From the IMG/VR virus record IMGVR_UViG_3300044993_000032, positions 1-42,768 of that record: a stretch of 42,768 bases of DNA, one strand, 5' to 3'. The translations under genes and the position numbers were made by a program. This document shows positions 18,347 to 41,075 of this stretch, one piece after another. Positions within the stretch are counted from its first letter, which is position 1, and the number at the start of each line of letters is the position of its first letter. The notes beneath the pieces were generated by a model. It had not been told where the DNA came from, made no database searches, and was given only the letters and a program-made list of their open reading frames with translations. This DNA comes from a virus.

Positions 18347-18766
18347 ATGCTGGCCGGAATTCTGGAGACTACTGCAGGCAAAATCGGAGCTGTAGCCGCC
18401 ATCATTCTAGGCGTAGGCGTCATCTGGAAACAAGTTATTGGACCTTTTATTCGTGCAATCATTACAATCGCCAACGGCGTCAACATTCTGATCGACATCT
18501 CCCAAGAGTTCAGAAACAACGGAGGCGTTACTCTCAAGGATGTCGTAGACGGTATCAAAGAGGACACCGCTGCCGTTAGAACAGAACTAAGCAGCCTTAG
18601 GGGCGAGTTCAACGCTCATAGAGTCGAAGACTGGCAGAATTTCGAAGCACTAACAACTCGCCAGGAACGAATCGAGCTTCACGTAACGGATGCTCTTCGT
18701 AACCAGGCGAGAGATGTTGAAGCCGGGGTCAGGAGTCGACCTAACCCTCCCGAGGTGCCAGGCTAA
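18347..18766 (+). CDS. Membrane-anchored coiled-coil protein, DUF2746-like
   Basis: A 139-residue protein with AAGGAG upstream. There is one strong membrane segment at about residues 10-45 (KIGAVAAIILGVGVIWKQ followed by FIRAIITIANGVNILI), then a soluble helical region with heptad-like spacing (TAAVRTELSSLRGEFNAH). Proteins of this build (DUF2746 or second-holin/spanin-like) follow lysis or baseplate genes in actinophages. A second lysis protein is possible. It is the last gene of the rightward cluster. Confidence 0.68.
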   Translation: MLAGILETTAGKIGAVAAIILGVGVIWKQVIGPFIRAIITIANGVNILIDISQEFRNNGGVTLKDVVDGIKEDTAAVRTELSSLRGEFNAHRVEDWQNFEALTTRQERIELHVTDALRNQARDVEAGVRSRPNPPEVPG

Positions 18767-18781
18767 GACCCCGGCTTCAAC
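18716..18781. terminator. Bidirectional terminator between convergent transcripts
   Basis: Perfect 15-base arms (GTTGAAGCCGGGGTC and GACCCCGGCTTCAAC) enclose 36 bases that contain the stop codons of both converging genes. The arms are therefore coding: the left arm is the end of the plus-strand gene and the right arm the end of the minus-strand gene. No T-tract flanks them. It probably stops both transcripts. Confidence 0.75.
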
Positions 18782-23194: not shown

Positions 23195-23790
23195 CACTTC
23201 CCTCCGATTAGCGAGAGGAATTCCGAACGAGCGTCCTTCATCGGATCGCGAAACACTCCTGTCATCGACGAAGTGACGGTCTTAGCGCCTGGAACCTCAA
23301 CACCTCGCATAGTCATACAGAGATGTTCAGCTTCCATTACGACGCCTACGCCGAGAGGCTCCAACCGCTCGGTCAGGAAGTCGGCAATGTGGGAGGTCAA
23401 CTCCTCTTGAACATTCAAGTCACGACTAAAGTACTCTACGGTTCGAGCCAACTTGGAAATACCGCAGATTTTGCCATTGGGAATGTACGCGATATGCGCC
23501 ACCCCATGGAACGGAAGGATATGATGAGCGCAGAACGTGTAGAATGGAATATTCCTCACGATCACCATCTCATCCACGTCCGATTCAAAAACGGTGAAGT
23601 CGAATGACTCAGGCGTCGTCAACTCCGACAACATTTTAGCGAAACGTTCTGGTGTTCGCTTCAAGTGCGAATCGTCACAAAAGTCCTTCATAGGAAACAG
23701 CCTGGACAACAACACGAATGCCGCCTCTTCAGCTGACGAATCAAACACCTCGAGCCTCCGGACTCCAGATATACTTGTGGACTTGAACAT
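23194..23790 (-). CDS. GTP cyclohydrolase I
   Basis: A 198-residue enzyme for the first step of 7-deazaguanine synthesis, GTP to dihydroneopterin triphosphate. Zinc and active-site signatures are FCAHHILPFHGVAHIAYIP near residue 82, KICGISKLARTVEYFSR near 105 and EAEHLCMTMRGV near 153. The ATG at 23790 with GGAAGA upstream is preferred; it overlaps queE by 50 bases. It stands in the order queC-queD-queE-folE, so the phage carries its own entry into the pathway rather than relying on host folate synthesis. Confidence 0.92.
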   Translation of the reverse strand: MFKSTSISGVRRLEVFDSSAEEAAFVLLSRLFPMKDFCDDSHLKRTPERFAKMLSELTTPESFDFTVFESDVDEMVIVRNIPFYTFCAHHILPFHGVAHIAYIPNGKICGISKLARTVEYFSRDLNVQEELTSHIADFLTERLEPLGVGVVMEAEHLCMTMRGVEVPGAKTVTSSMTGVFRDPMKDARSEFLSLIGGK

Positions 23791-24421
23791 TAATCTTCCA
23801 GGGCAGCTGCCGAGCCAAAGCAAAGTTCATGACCTGTTCTGGCGTAAGATGGCCGAATGCCGCACCAGCCCAGATCTGCGCTCGTACTCCATAATGATAC
23901 AACCAATCGGTTACATCAGCTGCATGTTCCAGATCCTCCTCGTCTTTACAGACGAACTTGATCGCCTGGTGAGGCCATAGGACTCGACAGTTCGCTTTAA
24001 CCTTTTGTTCGTAAGCTTCAGTGTTTTCGCCACTTCCTGGAAGCTTCCAGTCCATGACAACATAGACCCTGTGGTCGAAAGCCCAAGTTGGGATTGCCTG
24101 ACTGCCATTCGTGAAGACATCAATCTTCCAATCACGTGGAAGTGCCTTTACAAATTGTTCTAGTTCTCTACTACGCTGAGCCAGAGGTTCACCCCCAGTT
24201 AGGCATACGTGCTTTGGAAATGGATTTACCAGACGAATAAGTTCGTCTGGATCGACGACCTTCCACTGATCTCCATACTTGACGGTGTCGATAGCGAATT
24301 CCGTATCGCAAGGCCAGTCAGCACACCTCATGTTGCAGCCGCCAAAGCGAATGAACTGGATAAGGTGTCCTGTATTCGGTCCCTCACCTTGGATACTGGT
24401 GTAAAGTTCAACCAACCTCAC
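23741..24421 (-). CDS. 7-carboxy-7-deazaguanine synthase (radical SAM)
   Basis: A 226-residue QueE, which converts carboxytetrahydropterin to 7-carboxy-7-deazaguanine with S-adenosylmethionine and a 4Fe-4S cluster. Residues 1-35 read VELYTSIQGEGPNTGHL and FGGCNMRCADWPCDT, then CLTGGEPLAQ near 73. The three cysteines are spaced CX3CX4C, not the usual CX3CX2C or CX14CX2C. GTG start with GGAGG six bases upstream. Confidence 0.9.
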   Translation of the reverse strand: MRLVELYTSIQGEGPNTGHLIQFIRFGGCNMRCADWPCDTEFAIDTVKYGDQWKVVDPDELIRLVNPFPKHVCLTGGEPLAQRSRELEQFVKALPRDWKIDVFTNGSQAIPTWAFDHRVYVVMDWKLPGSGENTEAYEQKVKANCRVLWPHQAIKFVCKDEEDLEHAADVTDWLYHYGVRAQIWAGAAFGHLTPEQVMNFALARQLPWKINVQVHKYIWSPEARGV

Positions 24422-24893
24422 GTCTCACCTCCGAAACGTAGGCAACGCTTGTAGGCGTCTCCCAAACGGTCACACCTTCCAGCCAAAGGTTGCCTCTCCA
24501 GTGATGCTCAATGATCGGCCGAAGCTGGTTAGCAACCCACAGGGCGATGTTCTCGGCTGTTGGAATGAAGTCGACGGTGATGACCTTAAGTGTATGTTCC
24601 GGTTCGAGCTGCTGCAGGTTTTGTAGAGCAGCTATGCAAGCAGTGTCGCCTTCGTAGACGATGAATCCGTGATCGAATCGATCGTGAATTTCTTCGGTCA
24701 TGATCGTCTTCAAATCACCAAAGTCAATCAGCATACCTTCGTCAGGAGCGCCTGGTTCGTCGATAATTTGTCCTCCGCACTCGACAGTCACTACATAGCG
24801 ATGACCGTGCAAGTTGCGGCACTTAGAGCCATGTCGAGGAACACGGTGCCCAGCGTCGAATTGAATCTCTTTTGAGATCGACACCCTCTGCAT
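24408..24893 (-). CDS. 6-carboxy-5,6,7,8-tetrahydropterin synthase
   Basis: A 161-residue QueD/PTPS-family enzyme that turns dihydroneopterin triphosphate into carboxytetrahydropterin. Zinc histidines are in FDAGHRVPRHG and RNLHGHRYVV, the catalytic cysteine candidate is in GSKCRNLHGH, and a later FDHGFIVYEGD and PTAENIALWVANQL complete the fold. The ATG overlaps the queC stop (TAATG). The position of this start, with the family's usual length, settles it. Confidence 0.9.
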   Translation of the reverse strand: MQRVSISKEIQFDAGHRVPRHGSKCRNLHGHRYVVTVECGGQIIDEPGAPDEGMLIDFGDLKTIMTEEIHDRFDHGFIVYEGDTACIAALQNLQQLEPEHTLKVITVDFIPTAENIALWVANQLRPIIEHHWRGNLWLEGVTVWETPTSVAYVSEVRREVG

Positions 24894-25594
24894 TACTTCA
24901 CCAGACCCGTTGCCATACGCCAGTAGTACTTGTCTACGTAAACAGTAGGATCCTCCACACAGGCGCGGAAGAACGCTTCGGCACGTTCGACACAAGTACC
25001 ACACCTGCCGCAGTGGTTCTTGCCCCCCTTGTAACACGACCACGTCTGATCGAACGGCACCTTCAACTGCTGACCGATAGTGACGATATCAGCCTTCGAC
25101 TTGTCTCTGAACGGAAATACCAACGTCGGTGGATCGAAGCCTTCGTTAGCGTGATTCGAAGCGAGCTGCAGGGCTTCGAAGAACGGCGGACGACAATCGG
25201 GGTAGACGAAGTGATCGCCAGCGTGCATACCTGCGTACACGTAGTTAGCACCCTGAGCCACTGCGACGCCGATAGCGATCGACAGCATCATCATGTTGCG
25301 ATTCGGAACGATCGTCCGACGCATGTTCTCTTCAGCGTAGTGGCCCTCAGGCACTTCCTCGTCGCTAGTCAGAGCCGACGATGCAATCAGCTTTGTGATA
25401 CTCGTCAAGTTGATGAGATTCCAATTACAGTTCAACCTATCAGCCGTCCTGAGTGCGAAGTCCAACTCCTTCTTGTGCTTCTGGCCGTAGTCAAAGGACA
25501 AGAGTTGGATCTCCGATCCTGTAAACTGTTCAGCAACGAGATGGCACAGAACAGTACTGTCCAACCCGCCGCTCGTGATAACGACAGCTTCCAT
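24893..25594 (-). CDS. 7-cyano-7-deazaguanine (preQ0) synthase
   Basis: A 233-residue ATP-dependent QueC that makes preQ0 from 7-carboxy-7-deazaguanine and ammonia. The PP-loop SGGLDST is at residues 8-14, and SFDYGQKHKKEL is near 33. MHAGDHFVYPDCRPPFF is near 122, and a zinc site WSCYKGGKNHCGRCGTCVER with four cysteines is near 187. GGAGGCGTAAAG precedes the ATG. No QueF follows, so the pathway should stop at preQ0, the substrate of DpdA. Confidence 0.92.
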   Translation of the reverse strand: MEAVVITSGGLDSTVLCHLVAEQFTGSEIQLLSFDYGQKHKKELDFALRTADRLNCNWNLINLTSITKLIASSALTSDEEVPEGHYAEENMRRTIVPNRNMMMLSIAIGVAVAQGANYVYAGMHAGDHFVYPDCRPPFFEALQLASNHANEGFDPPTLVFPFRDKSKADIVTIGQQLKVPFDQTWSCYKGGKNHCGRCGTCVERAEAFFRACVEDPTVYVDKYYWRMATGLVK

Positions 25595-25596
25595 CT

Positions 25597-27771
25597 TTAC
25601 GCCTCCACGGGGTATAGGTGTTCGGTCTTTCCATTCTTGGTTCGAGAGACAAGGCCTCTCTGTTCCAAGGTTTCGAATACCAAATTCGCCTCTCTAGCTG
25701 TCATATGGTACGTTTGCATCAGTTCGGACCGAAGGATTCCGGGCTTCTTTCGAACTGCTGTAAGTACCATCTCTACCTGTCTCTCCTGAGCAGTGAGACC
25801 CAGCTTCTGAATGACATCGACTACATGAGGACGCCAGCGTTCGATGTAGTAGAAGGCTCTCTTGATGTCATCGGGTTCGACAACGATCTCGGGTTCACCC
25901 TCCTTTTTGACTGCAGCAATGAGTACAGCAATTTTCAGTGCACTCTTCGACATGCGATCGAACGTAGGGGTCATCAACTCACTGCGAGGCAAGTCCAATG
26001 CGTTCTGAAGCATTGCCGACTCGTATTCGTTGTACAACGCCCAAGCTCGATCAGTCAGACGAGCATTCCACTTACGTTCACCTTGGGCTACTGTCTTCCC
26101 ATCCACAGAGACTGATTGGGCTCCGTGGTACGCACGGTAGACAGAACGAAACTTCGCAATGATTTCGTCACGCTTGGCTGTGGACTGCTCTGTCGGAGGG
26201 CCCAGAGGCTTCAGCTTCGTGACATCTGATTCTGCTGTCACGAGTAGGAAACGAGGCAAGAAGCCAGATGCTACGTGTTCCGTATTGAGAAGTTCCAAGG
26301 TACGTGTTTTGATGCCTCCAGCAAAGAAGATCAAGCAGGGGTCACGTACCTCGAGAATCTCCTTTCGAAGGACGCGCTTCTGGAGACGCCCATCGTACAG
26401 CTTAGTCAGAGTCTCCGCCATGCCTGCATAGTAGTCCTTTTTGGACATGGCCTCTAGAAGACCCGTAAACTCGTCCCGAAGAAATACACTAGGACGACCA
26501 GGCCGCATACTGAGAGAAGTAAGTAGACCTTCGAGAGAGCCGTCAGTTGCCAGAATGATGTCGCTATCGATTTCAGCCACGACATCAACGGCCAAATCCA
26601 TTGCGGTCGACTTCCGAGTGAGAGTCGTGTCTGCGAGAATCATGAACCAGAGATTCGGAATCACCAGACCGAAGCTCGTTGGCAGACGAACTGTCCCTGC
26701 GAGAAGAGAAGACAGGATGACAAAAGCGCCCACTTCGTGGTACTGCCACGCTGCATCGCCAATCGTTTTGGCCCATTCGATGTACTCCTCGATGATGGTT
26801 TGTTCCTGCTGACAGAACAAACGCTCCTCGTCAGTAAGGAGCGGTGTGAGATTGATTGTGACAGGTCCAGTCGGAAGGGCCTTCGCTTTGGCGTCGTAGT
26901 TCGACCACGCTCTACAGACATCCTTCCACAGCATGCGTTCGCTGCGGCCGTCTCTGTTGTACTTATTGCACTTCGCTTCTCGTACAACTGCGAAGACTTC
27001 CTCCCTGGATAGACCAGCCTCGAACAAATAGTTCTCCAGAACCCAAAGAGACTTCGACCAGTCCGAGGTAGGTGTCTCGCTGAAGAGTGTCCAGACTTGT
27101 GGTACGATAAAGGTCCGATGGTCATCGAGAATCTGCTCAGGTGTCTTATTGGGCAGACTCTCTGGAAACGGAATCGTCGAGTACTCGTGGCCCTCAGCTT
27201 CGGGATAGACCTCGAAGTCCTCGATGGCTAGGGGAGTCGCGTTCGTTTCCTTGATATCGATCGTCGGAAGAGTTCCGGCTCCTCGATACTTATGATTGAA
27301 TGAGAAAGGAACACGCAGCAGTTGTGTCAGATCCCAGCCAGACTTGTCAGCACCATCTTCTGCGTGATAGTACGCAATACGACGGCTGACTTCTTCGGCG
27401 ACAGCAGGTTCAGGAGAAGGCTTTACAATCCAAAGCGCCTGGTACCGATTCGGAGAAGTCTGAACCAGAATCGTTGGCTTCACCAGAAGCTTTTCTGGCG
27501 GACAATTATCCAAATCGGCCCAAAGAGTCGGACAAGTAATGACGGTTTCCTTACTACGCTTCGCCCTGCTCAAAAGCTGCGGGCAGTAATACAGATCGTG
27601 AGTAACGGCGAACTTGTGTAGGTGTCCGAATAGTTGCTCCCACTGATTCGGGAGCAAAAAGAAGTCTTCCTCGAACGTCCTGGTTCCAGGCATACGTCGA
27701 GCAATACAAACGTACCCCTTGTGCTCGCCGAAAATGATTCTGAAGAACTGTTCTCGGCGTTGCTTGGACAA
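25597..27771 (-). CDS. Primase-helicase (AEP-type primase plus DUF3987-like ATPase)
   Basis: A 724-residue protein. Residues about 60-200 carry primase-polymerase features: TLWADLDNCPPE (D-x-D), then GWDLTQLLRVPFSFNHKY, the typical 'R.PG..N.K' element. Residues about 330-600 form an ATPase of the DUF3987 type, with LADTTLTRKSTAM as the P-loop, VFLRDEFTGLLEAM as Walker B and GFLPRFLLV as the arginine segment. The C-terminal 60 residues look like a winged helix (RSELMQTYHMTAREANLVF). The start is TTG with AAAGG six bases upstream. It would prime and unwind at the replication fork. Confidence 0.85.
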   Translation of the reverse strand: MSKQRREQFFRIIFGEHKGYVCIARRMPGTRTFEEDFFLLPNQWEQLFGHLHKFAVTHDLYYCPQLLSRAKRSKETVITCPTLWADLDNCPPEKLLVKPTILVQTSPNRYQALWIVKPSPEPAVAEEVSRRIAYYHAEDGADKSGWDLTQLLRVPFSFNHKYRGAGTLPTIDIKETNATPLAIEDFEVYPEAEGHEYSTIPFPESLPNKTPEQILDDHRTFIVPQVWTLFSETPTSDWSKSLWVLENYLFEAGLSREEVFAVVREAKCNKYNRDGRSERMLWKDVCRAWSNYDAKAKALPTGPVTINLTPLLTDEERLFCQQEQTIIEEYIEWAKTIGDAAWQYHEVGAFVILSSLLAGTVRLPTSFGLVIPNLWFMILADTTLTRKSTAMDLAVDVVAEIDSDIILATDGSLEGLLTSLSMRPGRPSVFLRDEFTGLLEAMSKKDYYAGMAETLTKLYDGRLQKRVLRKEILEVRDPCLIFFAGGIKTRTLELLNTEHVASGFLPRFLLVTAESDVTKLKPLGPPTEQSTAKRDEIIAKFRSVYRAYHGAQSVSVDGKTVAQGERKWNARLTDRAWALYNEYESAMLQNALDLPRSELMTPTFDRMSKSALKIAVLIAAVKKEGEPEIVVEPDDIKRAFYYIERWRPHVVDVIQKLGLTAQERQVEMVLTAVRKKPGILRSELMQTYHMTAREANLVFETLEQRGLVSRTKNGKTEHLYPVEA

Positions 27772-27803
27772 TGTGCCCCTTTACGATACGATTGAGAGAG
27801 GAA

Positions 27804-27911
27804 GTAGAGGGCGCCGTCGGACTTTACTCGGAAGCTCCGACTACTACACGAGGAGGTGCGTTCCAGCGAAAGGACCCACAAACTCTGGACGCAGCTACCG
27901 GCGCCCTCTAC
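27804..27911 (-). ncRNA. Candidate structured RNA, three-way junction
   Basis: In the gap between the DUF669-type gene and the primase gene, a perfect 13-base-pair closing stem (27804-27816 with 27899-27911) encloses two further hairpins. One pairs 27817-27821 with 27836-27840 plus CTT/AAG inside. The other pairs 27857-27861 with 27889-27893 and 27863-27866 with 27885-27888, with a one-base bulge. It lies in the operon transcript, about 11 bases after one stop and 32 before the next start. It may be a processed RNA, ribozyme, riboswitch or stabilising element. No known family was matched by eye. Confidence 0.55.
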
Positions 27912-27922
27912 GACCAGCTGTA

Positions 27923-28372
27923 CTACGGCAACATACTCATGTCGGCGAGGTCTTCGTCGGTGACGCGCCTGACACGCTGTACGTCATTCGACTCATCGTA
28001 GTCGCCCGAAGCCGGACGCACCTTGACCTTCACCTTCACATCGCAACCGATCAGGTCGTCGAATTCGAACTCCACTTCGCCCATGAGGTCCGACTCCTCG
28101 AACCGACCGCTCGCCAGTAGTACTTCTCGGAGGCGGCCAAGACCACGCTCGACGCCGTCAGAGTCCGGTACCAGAACGTTGTTCATGAAGAACTTCCGCC
28201 CCTGGTACTCGCCTTCCTGAACCGTGAACTCCCACTTGACCATAGGCGAACCTGGCTTCTTGGAATTGGGACCCGTAACAGTTGCCTCGCCGCCGGTGAT
28301 CTTGCAGATATACGTACCTGCAGGGACGGCAGAGAAGCCTGAATCGCTGGCGCCAGAAAGGTTAATTCGCAT
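27923..28372 (-). CDS. DUF669-type protein, possible ssDNA-binding partner
   Basis: A 149-residue protein with a beta-rich core: AVPAGTYICKITGGEATVT near residue 15, KWEFTVQEGEYQGRKFFMNN near 46, EFEFDDLIGCDVKVKVKVRP near 105. This pattern is that of DUF669 proteins found beside Sak4/RecT-like recombination genes in phages, where an ssDNA-binding or accessory recombination role is suspected. The start ATG overlaps the preceding gene by 11 bases. Confidence 0.72.
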   Translation of the reverse strand: MRINLSGASDSGFSAVPAGTYICKITGGEATVTGPNSKKPGSPMVKWEFTVQEGEYQGRKFFMNNVLVPDSDGVERGLGRLREVLLASGRFEESDLMGEVEFEFDDLIGCDVKVKVKVRPASGDYDESNDVQRVRRVTDEDLADMSMLP

Positions 28373-37623: not shown

Positions 37624-37658
37624 GGACCCTCCTGACGCTGCACCCGTCAGGAGGGTCC
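37624..37658 (-). terminator. Intrinsic terminator
   Basis: A perfect 14-base-pair stem (GGACCCTCCTGACG with CGTCAGGAGGGTCC, 7-base loop) is followed on the minus strand by TCTTTTT. It ends the transcript of the gene at 37774-38124. Confidence 0.85.
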
Positions 37659-37728: not shown

Positions 37729-37758
37729 GGATGCGGAGGCTTTGACACCTCCGCATCC
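37729..37758 (-). terminator. Second hairpin after the 37774 gene
   Basis: An 11-base-pair stem (GGATGCGGAGG with CCTCCGCATCC, 8-base loop) lies just beyond the stop codon. It has no T-tract and may pause or stabilise the transcript before the stronger terminator. Confidence 0.6.
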
Positions 37759-39253: not shown

Positions 39254-39310
39254 GTGTCCCAGGAGGGAGGTCACCTCTCTATAGTGGAGGTGACCTCCTT
39301 CTTGGGACAC
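39254..39310 (-). terminator. Long imperfect hairpin, terminator of the 39352 gene
   Basis: A 24-base-pair stem (GTGTCCCA... with ...GGGACAC), with two G-U positions and a short loop. It follows the stop of the minus-strand gene at 39352 and precedes the next gene's ribosome-binding site. Confidence 0.7.
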
Positions 39311-39330
39311 ACCATTAGCTGGTGTGTCCC

Positions 39331-39356
39331 CCTGATCTGCTTTGCGGCAGATCAGG
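39331..39356 (-). terminator. Hairpin overlapping the stop codon of the 39352 gene
   Basis: CCTGATCTGC pairs with GCAGATCAGG around a TTTGCG loop; the gene's stop codon is within the right arm. It is the first of two hairpins after this gene. Confidence 0.55.
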
Positions 39357-39707: not shown

Positions 39708-39770
39708 TAGGACTCCAAGACGGCTCTTCTACGAGAGCCGTCTTGGAGTCCTACACCTCGTAGTGTAGGA
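39708..39770 (-). terminator. Strong terminator plus overlapping second hairpin
   Basis: The main stem has 20 perfect base pairs (39708-39727 with 39734-39753, loop TCTACG). A second hairpin (TCCTACAC with GTGTAGGA, 39749-39770) shares five bases with it, so the two cannot form fully at the same time. It lies after the gene at 39782-39970 on the minus strand. Confidence 0.75.
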
Positions 39771-39781
39771 CTCGTCCCTCA

Positions 39782-41047: not shown

Positions 41048-41075
41048 GCAGCACCTCCTAAGTAGGAGGTGCTGC
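41048..41075 (-). terminator. Hairpin terminator of the 41086 gene
   Basis: A 12-base-pair stem (GCAGCACCTCCT with AGGAGGTGCTGC, AAGT loop) about 10 bases after the stop. Confidence 0.72.

Follow-up and report, generated by a model that had tools for sequence, protein, structure and literature searches.

A putative structured RNA, kept by place rather than by sequence, between the SSB and primase genes of a phage replication operon

Introduction

In the replication operon of the virus studied here, known from a 42.8-kb IMG/VR virus record (hereafter the window), the gap between the genes for a single-stranded DNA-binding protein (SSB) and a primase holds a branched, folded element; in related phages almost all gaps at this position fold into a strong stem, and none aligns with that of the window in sequence. 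The constancy of place, compensatory changes within clades and wobble mismatches on the mRNA strand, all of them evidence from relatives, argue for a functional RNA structure at this site. This part of an earlier, sequence-only reading of the window was upheld, while its suggestions of a riboswitch, a self-cleaving ribozyme or an origin structure were not; a processed RNA, which it also named, is possible. Being kept by place and not by sequence, the element is invisible to searches based on sequence or on RNA families. The role that we favour, tentatively and at somewhat short of an even chance, is that of an intercistronic stem of the kind known from selective RNA processing and stabilisation (SRPS), a barrier to 3' exonucleases that would keep the SSB message above the primase message. 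From a single transcript, phages have to produce SSB in large excess over primase, and the element would offer a simple, testable account of how this is achieved.

The operon and its SSB-primase gap

The operon lies on the minus strand and includes genes for a PD-(D/E)XK exonuclease, a Sak4-like ATPase, a DUF669/SSB protein, a primase, QueC, QueD, QueE, GTP cyclohydrolase, a MazG-like protein and a DNA polymerase. By the coordinates of their open reading frames, the genes overlap or abut from the exonuclease to the SSB and again from the primase to QueE; between the SSB and the primase, by contrast, 151 nucleotides (27772-27922) are free of genes, and the gap described earlier between the DUF669-type and primase genes is thus real. 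The upstream gene matches Pfam PF05037 (E 3.5e-9) and PHROG 378, single strand DNA binding protein, and the downstream gene matches PF16793 (RepB_primase), PF13148 and the PHROG DNA primase; the closest relative, locus L001, has the same reading of the TTG start at that position. The features of the region, all on the minus strand, are as follows, in the direction of transcription.

27923-28372, minus strand: upstream gene, DUF669 / phage SSB, with ATG at 28372 and stop codon TAG at 27925-27923
27899-27911, minus strand: 5' arm of the closing stem P1 (GUAGAGGGCGCCG), a 13-bp perfect inverted repeat that begins 11 nt past the SSB stop
27852-27898, minus strand: inner hairpin P2, imperfect and stacked directly on P1 in the predicted minimum free energy (MFE) structure
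27842-27851, minus strand: unpaired junction strand UCGUGUAGUA of the MFE structure
27816-27841, minus strand: inner hairpin P3 (GUCGGA...UCCGAC) of the MFE structure, with no linker to the 3' arm of P1
27804-27816, minus strand: 3' arm of P1 (CGGCGCCCUCUAC), from the MFE structure and the inverted repeat
27795-27803, minus strand: pyrimidine-rich 3' flank (UUCCUCUCU), G-free and with no U run
27776-27782, minus strand: AAAGGGG, resembling a Shine-Dalgarno sequence, of the primase gene; not part of the folded element
25597-27771, minus strand: downstream gene, primase with an N-terminal RepB_primase domain and DUF3987, TTG start

The two arms of P1 are perfectly complementary over 13 nt and enclose 82 nt; in 5000 dinucleotide shuffles of the gap a perfect 13-bp stem never appeared. 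RNAfold predicts a branched three-way junction for either strand, with -49.1 kcal/mol (z -3.7) on the minus (mRNA) strand and -53.9 kcal/mol (z -6.1) on the plus strand, and on either strand none of 200 shuffles folds as well. The closing stem around two further hairpins, as it had been read from the sequence, is therefore confirmed by inverted repeat, folding and shuffles alike. Since the neighbouring genes are all on the minus strand, the transcribed strand is the one with the less stable fold of the two. The remark that a T-tract is missing is correct in that T does not occur as a run, yet four of the 8 nt 3' of the stem (UUCCUCUC) are U.

The que cluster (23197-25594) lies directly 3' of the primase, as it does in 44 of 45 long IMG/VR relatives, which suggests from gene content that phages of this group carry 7-deazaguanine modification in their DNA. 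The queC gene is 2.2 kb from the element and has no leader of its own.

Further hairpins occur elsewhere in the window. Four of them (37729-37758, 39304-39330, 39746-39773 and 41048-41075) start 8-21 nt past plausible stop codons far from the primase, a placement expected for 11% of random positions, so that stop-proximal hairpins look like a habit of this phage and not like a device tied to the primase. Long perfect hairpins of up to 20 bp are present at 39266-39356, 39708-39773, 37624-37658, 41048-41075, 18716-18781 and 180-209, between small minus-strand genes and at a convergent gene junction; only that at 37624-37658 has a U-tract and is a clear terminator.

Recurrence of the fold in relatives

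With the primase as query, 80 IMG/VR loci were collected at 45-63% identity; Sak4 as query gave eight loci, none closer than these, and a search of genome contigs for relatives yielded none. The order Sak4-SSB-gap-primase is found in nearly all of the 80 loci whose contig reaches that far, and removal of near-duplicates left 61 loci with 52 gap sequence clusters. Even in the nearest relative (L001, primase 63% identical) the gap sequence is not alignable to that of the window. A DNA similarity search of the gap against 50,697 phage records gave short chance matches only, and the exact two-arm pattern was found nowhere in IMG/VR.

Structure, in contrast to sequence, recurs. Perfect inverted repeats of at least 12 bp fall in the zone from -300 to +40 of the primase start in 25 of the 61 loci (about 21 kb in total), and 16 repeats of the same class lie in the other ~674 kb, making the zone about 50-fold denser. 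A composition-corrected folding scan of 22,936 segments along the 61 loci has its sole peak at -120 to 0 of the primase start, where the mean z is -1.2 and -1.0 and some 11% of segments fall below z -3, as against 0-1% elsewhere. In 19 of the 61 loci (~14 kb examined) no other place folds better than the gap. The best stem of a gap lies above the 99th shuffle percentile in 28 of the 52 clusters; about a third of the clusters have no strong simple stem.

Across relatives the stems measure 11-24 bp and start a median of 12 nt past the SSB stop (interquartile range 9-20), ending a median of 38 nt before the primase start and clear of its ribosome site; three outliers (L032, L062 and L079) have another hairpin near the stop. 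The enclosed loop spans 41-105 nt in several relatives, and L045, L050 and L078 have hairpins of 12-13 bp with loops of 6-7 nt. In the clade of L004, L006, L007 and L060 the gap opens with CACTCCCA, a sequence complementary to the GGGGGTG that immediately precedes the primase start, a pairing that may mask the ribosome site.

A motif search of the 52 clusters found none in common: the commonest 6-mer, CGCACC, occurs in 11 clusters where the maximum of the null was 12, and it is the conserved loop of a single clade. In a clade formed by L030, L036, L038, L045, L050 and L053, the stems are unrelated in sequence, while the loop (GCGCACC) is identical and the flanks (TCCACCT ... AGGGCAG) are conserved.

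Pairing as RNA or as DNA

The strand and the molecule on which pairing is maintained can be read from mismatches. In 34 strong stems, picked by a score with no preference between G·T and A·C, the mRNA strand shows 37 G·T against 3 A·C (a nominal binomial p of 1e-8, which overstates independence because the loci are related), spread over 21 and 2 loci, respectively. A DNA duplex or cruciform predicts equal numbers of the two mismatches and an antisense RNA the reverse; the ratio of 37:3 thus points to an mRNA strand whose pairing is maintained at the level of RNA, and away from a DNA element. The signal is carried by the main stems only, since inner helices in single gaps have no bias (18:19), and the strand assignment for the window element rests on its relatives because its own stem has no G·T pair.

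Three small within-clade alignments show 4, 2 and 9 base pairs, respectively, in which both partners have changed; two of these alignments hold two sequences each and serve as illustrations, not statistics. The sequence-only reading had staked the element on conservation or covariation of the gap in phages that keep the flanking genes, and here the structure fares well, with its place kept and covariation within clades, while the sequence is not conserved. Two groups of gaps merit separate description. The divergent phages of L063, L056 and L097 have a common branched RNA, with the core GARGUUACGAAMG ... YUACUAGUGYUCAGUAGAGG inside a covarying closing stem of 13-15 bp, and with no Rfam match in L056 and L063. 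The gaps of L040 and L043 hold a homologous element in which a covarying 7-bp outer stem surrounds the conserved strand TGGTTACTCYARGGAACAGCAGCC.

An origin structure, as had been suggested from the sequence, would take the form of a DNA-level origin or an ssi-type priming hairpin serving the adjacent RepB-like primase. The idea draws on the RepB_primase domain of that protein, on the position of the element just upstream of its gene, and on the RepB' primase of RSF1010, which primes at hairpin ssi sites (PMC4434180). Such sites consist of a hairpin with specific flanks and a GTG 4-6 nt after it (PMC4434180); a GTG at the ssiA spacing follows none of the 34 stems in the sense direction and one in the antisense direction, so that it is absent from 33 of 34 on either strand. 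The excess of G·T over A·C and the lack of a motif among the 52 clusters also count against an origin, as do stems that hug the SSB stop and not the primase and the similar hairpins past stops far from it. The G·T/A·C test alone would leave some room for a hairpin formed by mRNA-like single-stranded DNA, which is disfavoured by the missing shared motif and ssiA GTG. We regard an origin as very improbable.

Searches against known RNA families

No family of Rfam 15 matched anywhere in the window at the gathering threshold, in line with the inability of the sequence-only reading to place the element in one, and matches within the gap up to E 10 were at chance level. ARAGORN detected no tRNA anywhere in the window, and the tRNA covariance model RF00005 had no match up to E 10 in 27700-28000. 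Among the loci of 30 relatives, Rfam returned nothing except one tRNA.

These results bear directly on the proposals of a 7-deazaguanine riboswitch or a self-cleaving ribozyme, for which the branched three-way-junction form, the que genes downstream in 44 of 45 long loci and the conserved single-stranded core of the sub-clade L056, L063 and L097 could be cited. The preQ1 families do not match the window element, no core is conserved across relatives, the ribosome site of the primase is outside the structure, and queC is distant. In the IMG/VR set, absence of que genes is no test of a preQ1 sensor, since 44 of 45 loci carry them; the argument comes instead from the absence of a motif and from the isolates Nonagon (a Curtobacterium phage), Frankenweenie (a Streptomyces phage) and Quantum, whose gaps hold strong, plain GC-rich hairpins although the stretch retrieved for each contains no que genes. 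Rfam ribozyme models matched neither in the window nor in the loci of the 30 relatives, and a hammerhead-like CUGACGA in L063 and L097 was dropped as a ribozyme candidate because it is not kept in L056. A sensor or ribozyme is, on this evidence, barely credible.

tRNAs in the same slot

The SSB-primase slot is occupied by tRNA genes in several isolated phages that carry the same operon, namely Yappy, Molivia, Anansi, Pan2 and Jojan60, and in the IMG/VR locus L026. The Curtobacterium phage Yappy and the Stenotrophomonas phage Jojan60 have a stop-proximal hairpin besides their tRNAs; the only tRNA of the Pseudanabaena phage Pan2 is the one in the slot, and all four tRNAs of Jojan60 lie there. 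In Jojan60 they are followed (L091:2880-2962) by an Rfam tmRNA match of 83 nt and 61.8 bits, in which the acceptor/T-arm domain and CCA are kept while 292 model positions of the message part are missing. The slot tRNAs of the Arthrobacter phages Molivia and Anansi have undetermined or odd anticodons. In two Arthrobacter phage loci (L090:2603-2756 and L093:2078-2239) the slot tRNAs have odd anticodon loops or are reported by ARAGORN as tRNA-???, with undetermined anticodons. The tRNA of L026 scores above threshold, and L004, L006, L007 and L015 are tRNA-like by eye or by a T-arm pattern, not by Rfam.

One explanation, which we hold to be rather doubtful, is that this is a general slot for structured RNA in a wide range of phages, in which stems (plain or branched), tRNAs (including degenerate ones) and the acceptor domain of a tmRNA lacking its message part would be interchangeable, splitting or insulating the SSB message, with selection acting on foldedness and place alone and the slot tRNA genes kept partly for their shape over decoding. 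The sharing of one slot by tRNAs and hairpins would give a possible reason beyond codon supply for the odd or degenerate tRNA genes that some phages retain.

The same observations could reflect endonucleolytic punctuation, in which the SSB message would be separated from the primase message by a nuclease specific for double strands (RNase III) or, at tRNA-like elements, by RNase P/Z. RNase III cleaves helices of some 20 bp and longer. A cut site would be consistent with the 15-24-bp stems that many relatives have, with the ~19-bp helix that stacking of P1 and P3 could form in the window element, and with the tRNAs and degenerate tRNA-like elements of the slot; many members, however, are hairpins of 12-13 bp with loops of 6-7 nt, short for RNase III, the window element lacks a tRNA match even at E 10, and no cleavage motif is conserved. 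Cleavage as the main role appears unlikely.

The 3' flank and partial termination

In the 9 nt that follow the 34 stems, G is depleted (0.10) and T enriched (0.34) relative to whole gaps (0.29 and 0.21), and the flank is also C-rich; at least three U occur within 8 nt in 21 of 34, and TTTT after the stem in two. A partial terminator after the SSB gene, U-poor and "I-shaped" or Rho-assisted, would allow only a fraction of polymerases to reach the primase, the que genes and the polymerase gene. Such a device would account for a GC-rich stem soon past the stop with a G-poor, mildly U-rich 3' flank, and the window contains a U-tract terminator of similar make at 37624-37658. Furthermore, most isolates with related primases infect actinobacteria, and in Streptomyces clavuligerus 353 structured 3' ends that lack U have been described (PMC8269248). 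Against this stand the rarity of TTTT, the large enclosed loops (82 nt in the window, 41-105 nt in several relatives), which would be slow to close during transcription, and the lack of an A-tract upstream. A short-loop GC stem with a U-tract, as in intrinsic terminators, is not what the gap contains, and a terminator scan of the window gave no site at 27.8 kb. Partial termination is, in our estimation, unlikely. A partial terminator and a cut site are serious rivals of a barrier. All three predict more SSB message than primase message, the enzyme involved being the only difference.

A proposed intercistronic stability boundary

We favour, with the reserve stated at the outset, a barrier to 3' exonucleases. 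The element would be a structured RNA of the 3'-UTR type that directly follows the SSB stop on the minus (mRNA) strand, within an exonuclease-Sak4-SSB-primase-que-polymerase transcript that probably runs across the gap as a single operon. On cleavage or decay of the downstream part of this message, with the primase, 3'-to-5' exonucleases would halt at the GC-rich stem, and the upstream part with the SSB would persist, presumably leaving SSB in excess over primase, in keeping with the greater demand of replication for SSB. Our proposal is that only the strength and place of the stem matter, so that sequence and inner branches could drift and any stable fold could fill the slot.

A stable stem inside an operon, 3' of the favoured gene, is what the window holds, with co-directional genes on both sides, and the same is true of the relatives; the window element has no U-tract, and 32 of 34 stems have no TTTT, the flank being mildly enriched in U. 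Several observations weigh against a barrier: the window's own stem lacks G·T pairs and its antisense strand folds better (-53.9 versus -49.1 kcal/mol), the U content of the 3' flank (0.34) is what a weak terminator would also give, a strong simple stem is missing from about a third of the gap clusters, and the tRNAs of the slot point to endonucleolytic processing over a plain barrier.

Comparison with known systems

Among 34 gene pairs of Escherichia coli that decay differentially and have a stabilised 5' gene, the mRNA 3' end falls directly behind a stable, U-tract-free hairpin in 26, and these ends have been read as a block to 3'-to-5' exonucleases (PMC5927463); in SRPS operons, stoichiometry is set by stem-loops of the 3' UTR (PMC8219983). 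The element resembles such cases of differential operon decay, malE-malF among them (PMC5927463, PMC8219983), in having a stable intercistronic stem without a U-tract after a gene needed in excess, and a structure conserved free of sequence. By this likeness of structure and place it may work as an SRPS stem, a class that itself rests on mapped 3' ends and half-lives. The known cases differ in being bacterial operons with measured decay, whereas the present one is a phage operon known from sequence, in which the stems are often branched and the slot may hold tRNAs.

Several other systems offer partial parallels. The U-lacking and I-shaped terminators of GC-rich actinobacteria (HS-U-lack; PMC8269248) also combine a GC-rich stem, no U run and a position near the stop codon; here, unlike there, the stem is inside an operon, often with a very large enclosed loop. 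The ssiA and ssiB sites of RSF1010 (PMC4434180) are likewise hairpins beside a RepB-type primase, but have specific flanking sequence, and none is common to these gaps. Polycistronic transcripts punctuated by tRNAs follow what is known as the mitochondrial model. A slot between two genes filled by tRNAs or hairpins at equivalent places recalls that arrangement, although the window element is not tRNA-like by the covariance model and cleavage is here only putative. A phage parallel would be gene 32 of T4, which encodes its SSB; no other T4 message is as stable as that of gene 32 (PMC3014915). There, as proposed here, a phage SSB message is singled out for stability via RNA processing, with the difference that T4 employs RNase E sites and a 5' pseudoknot (PMC3014915), while the present element lies 3' of the SSB gene.
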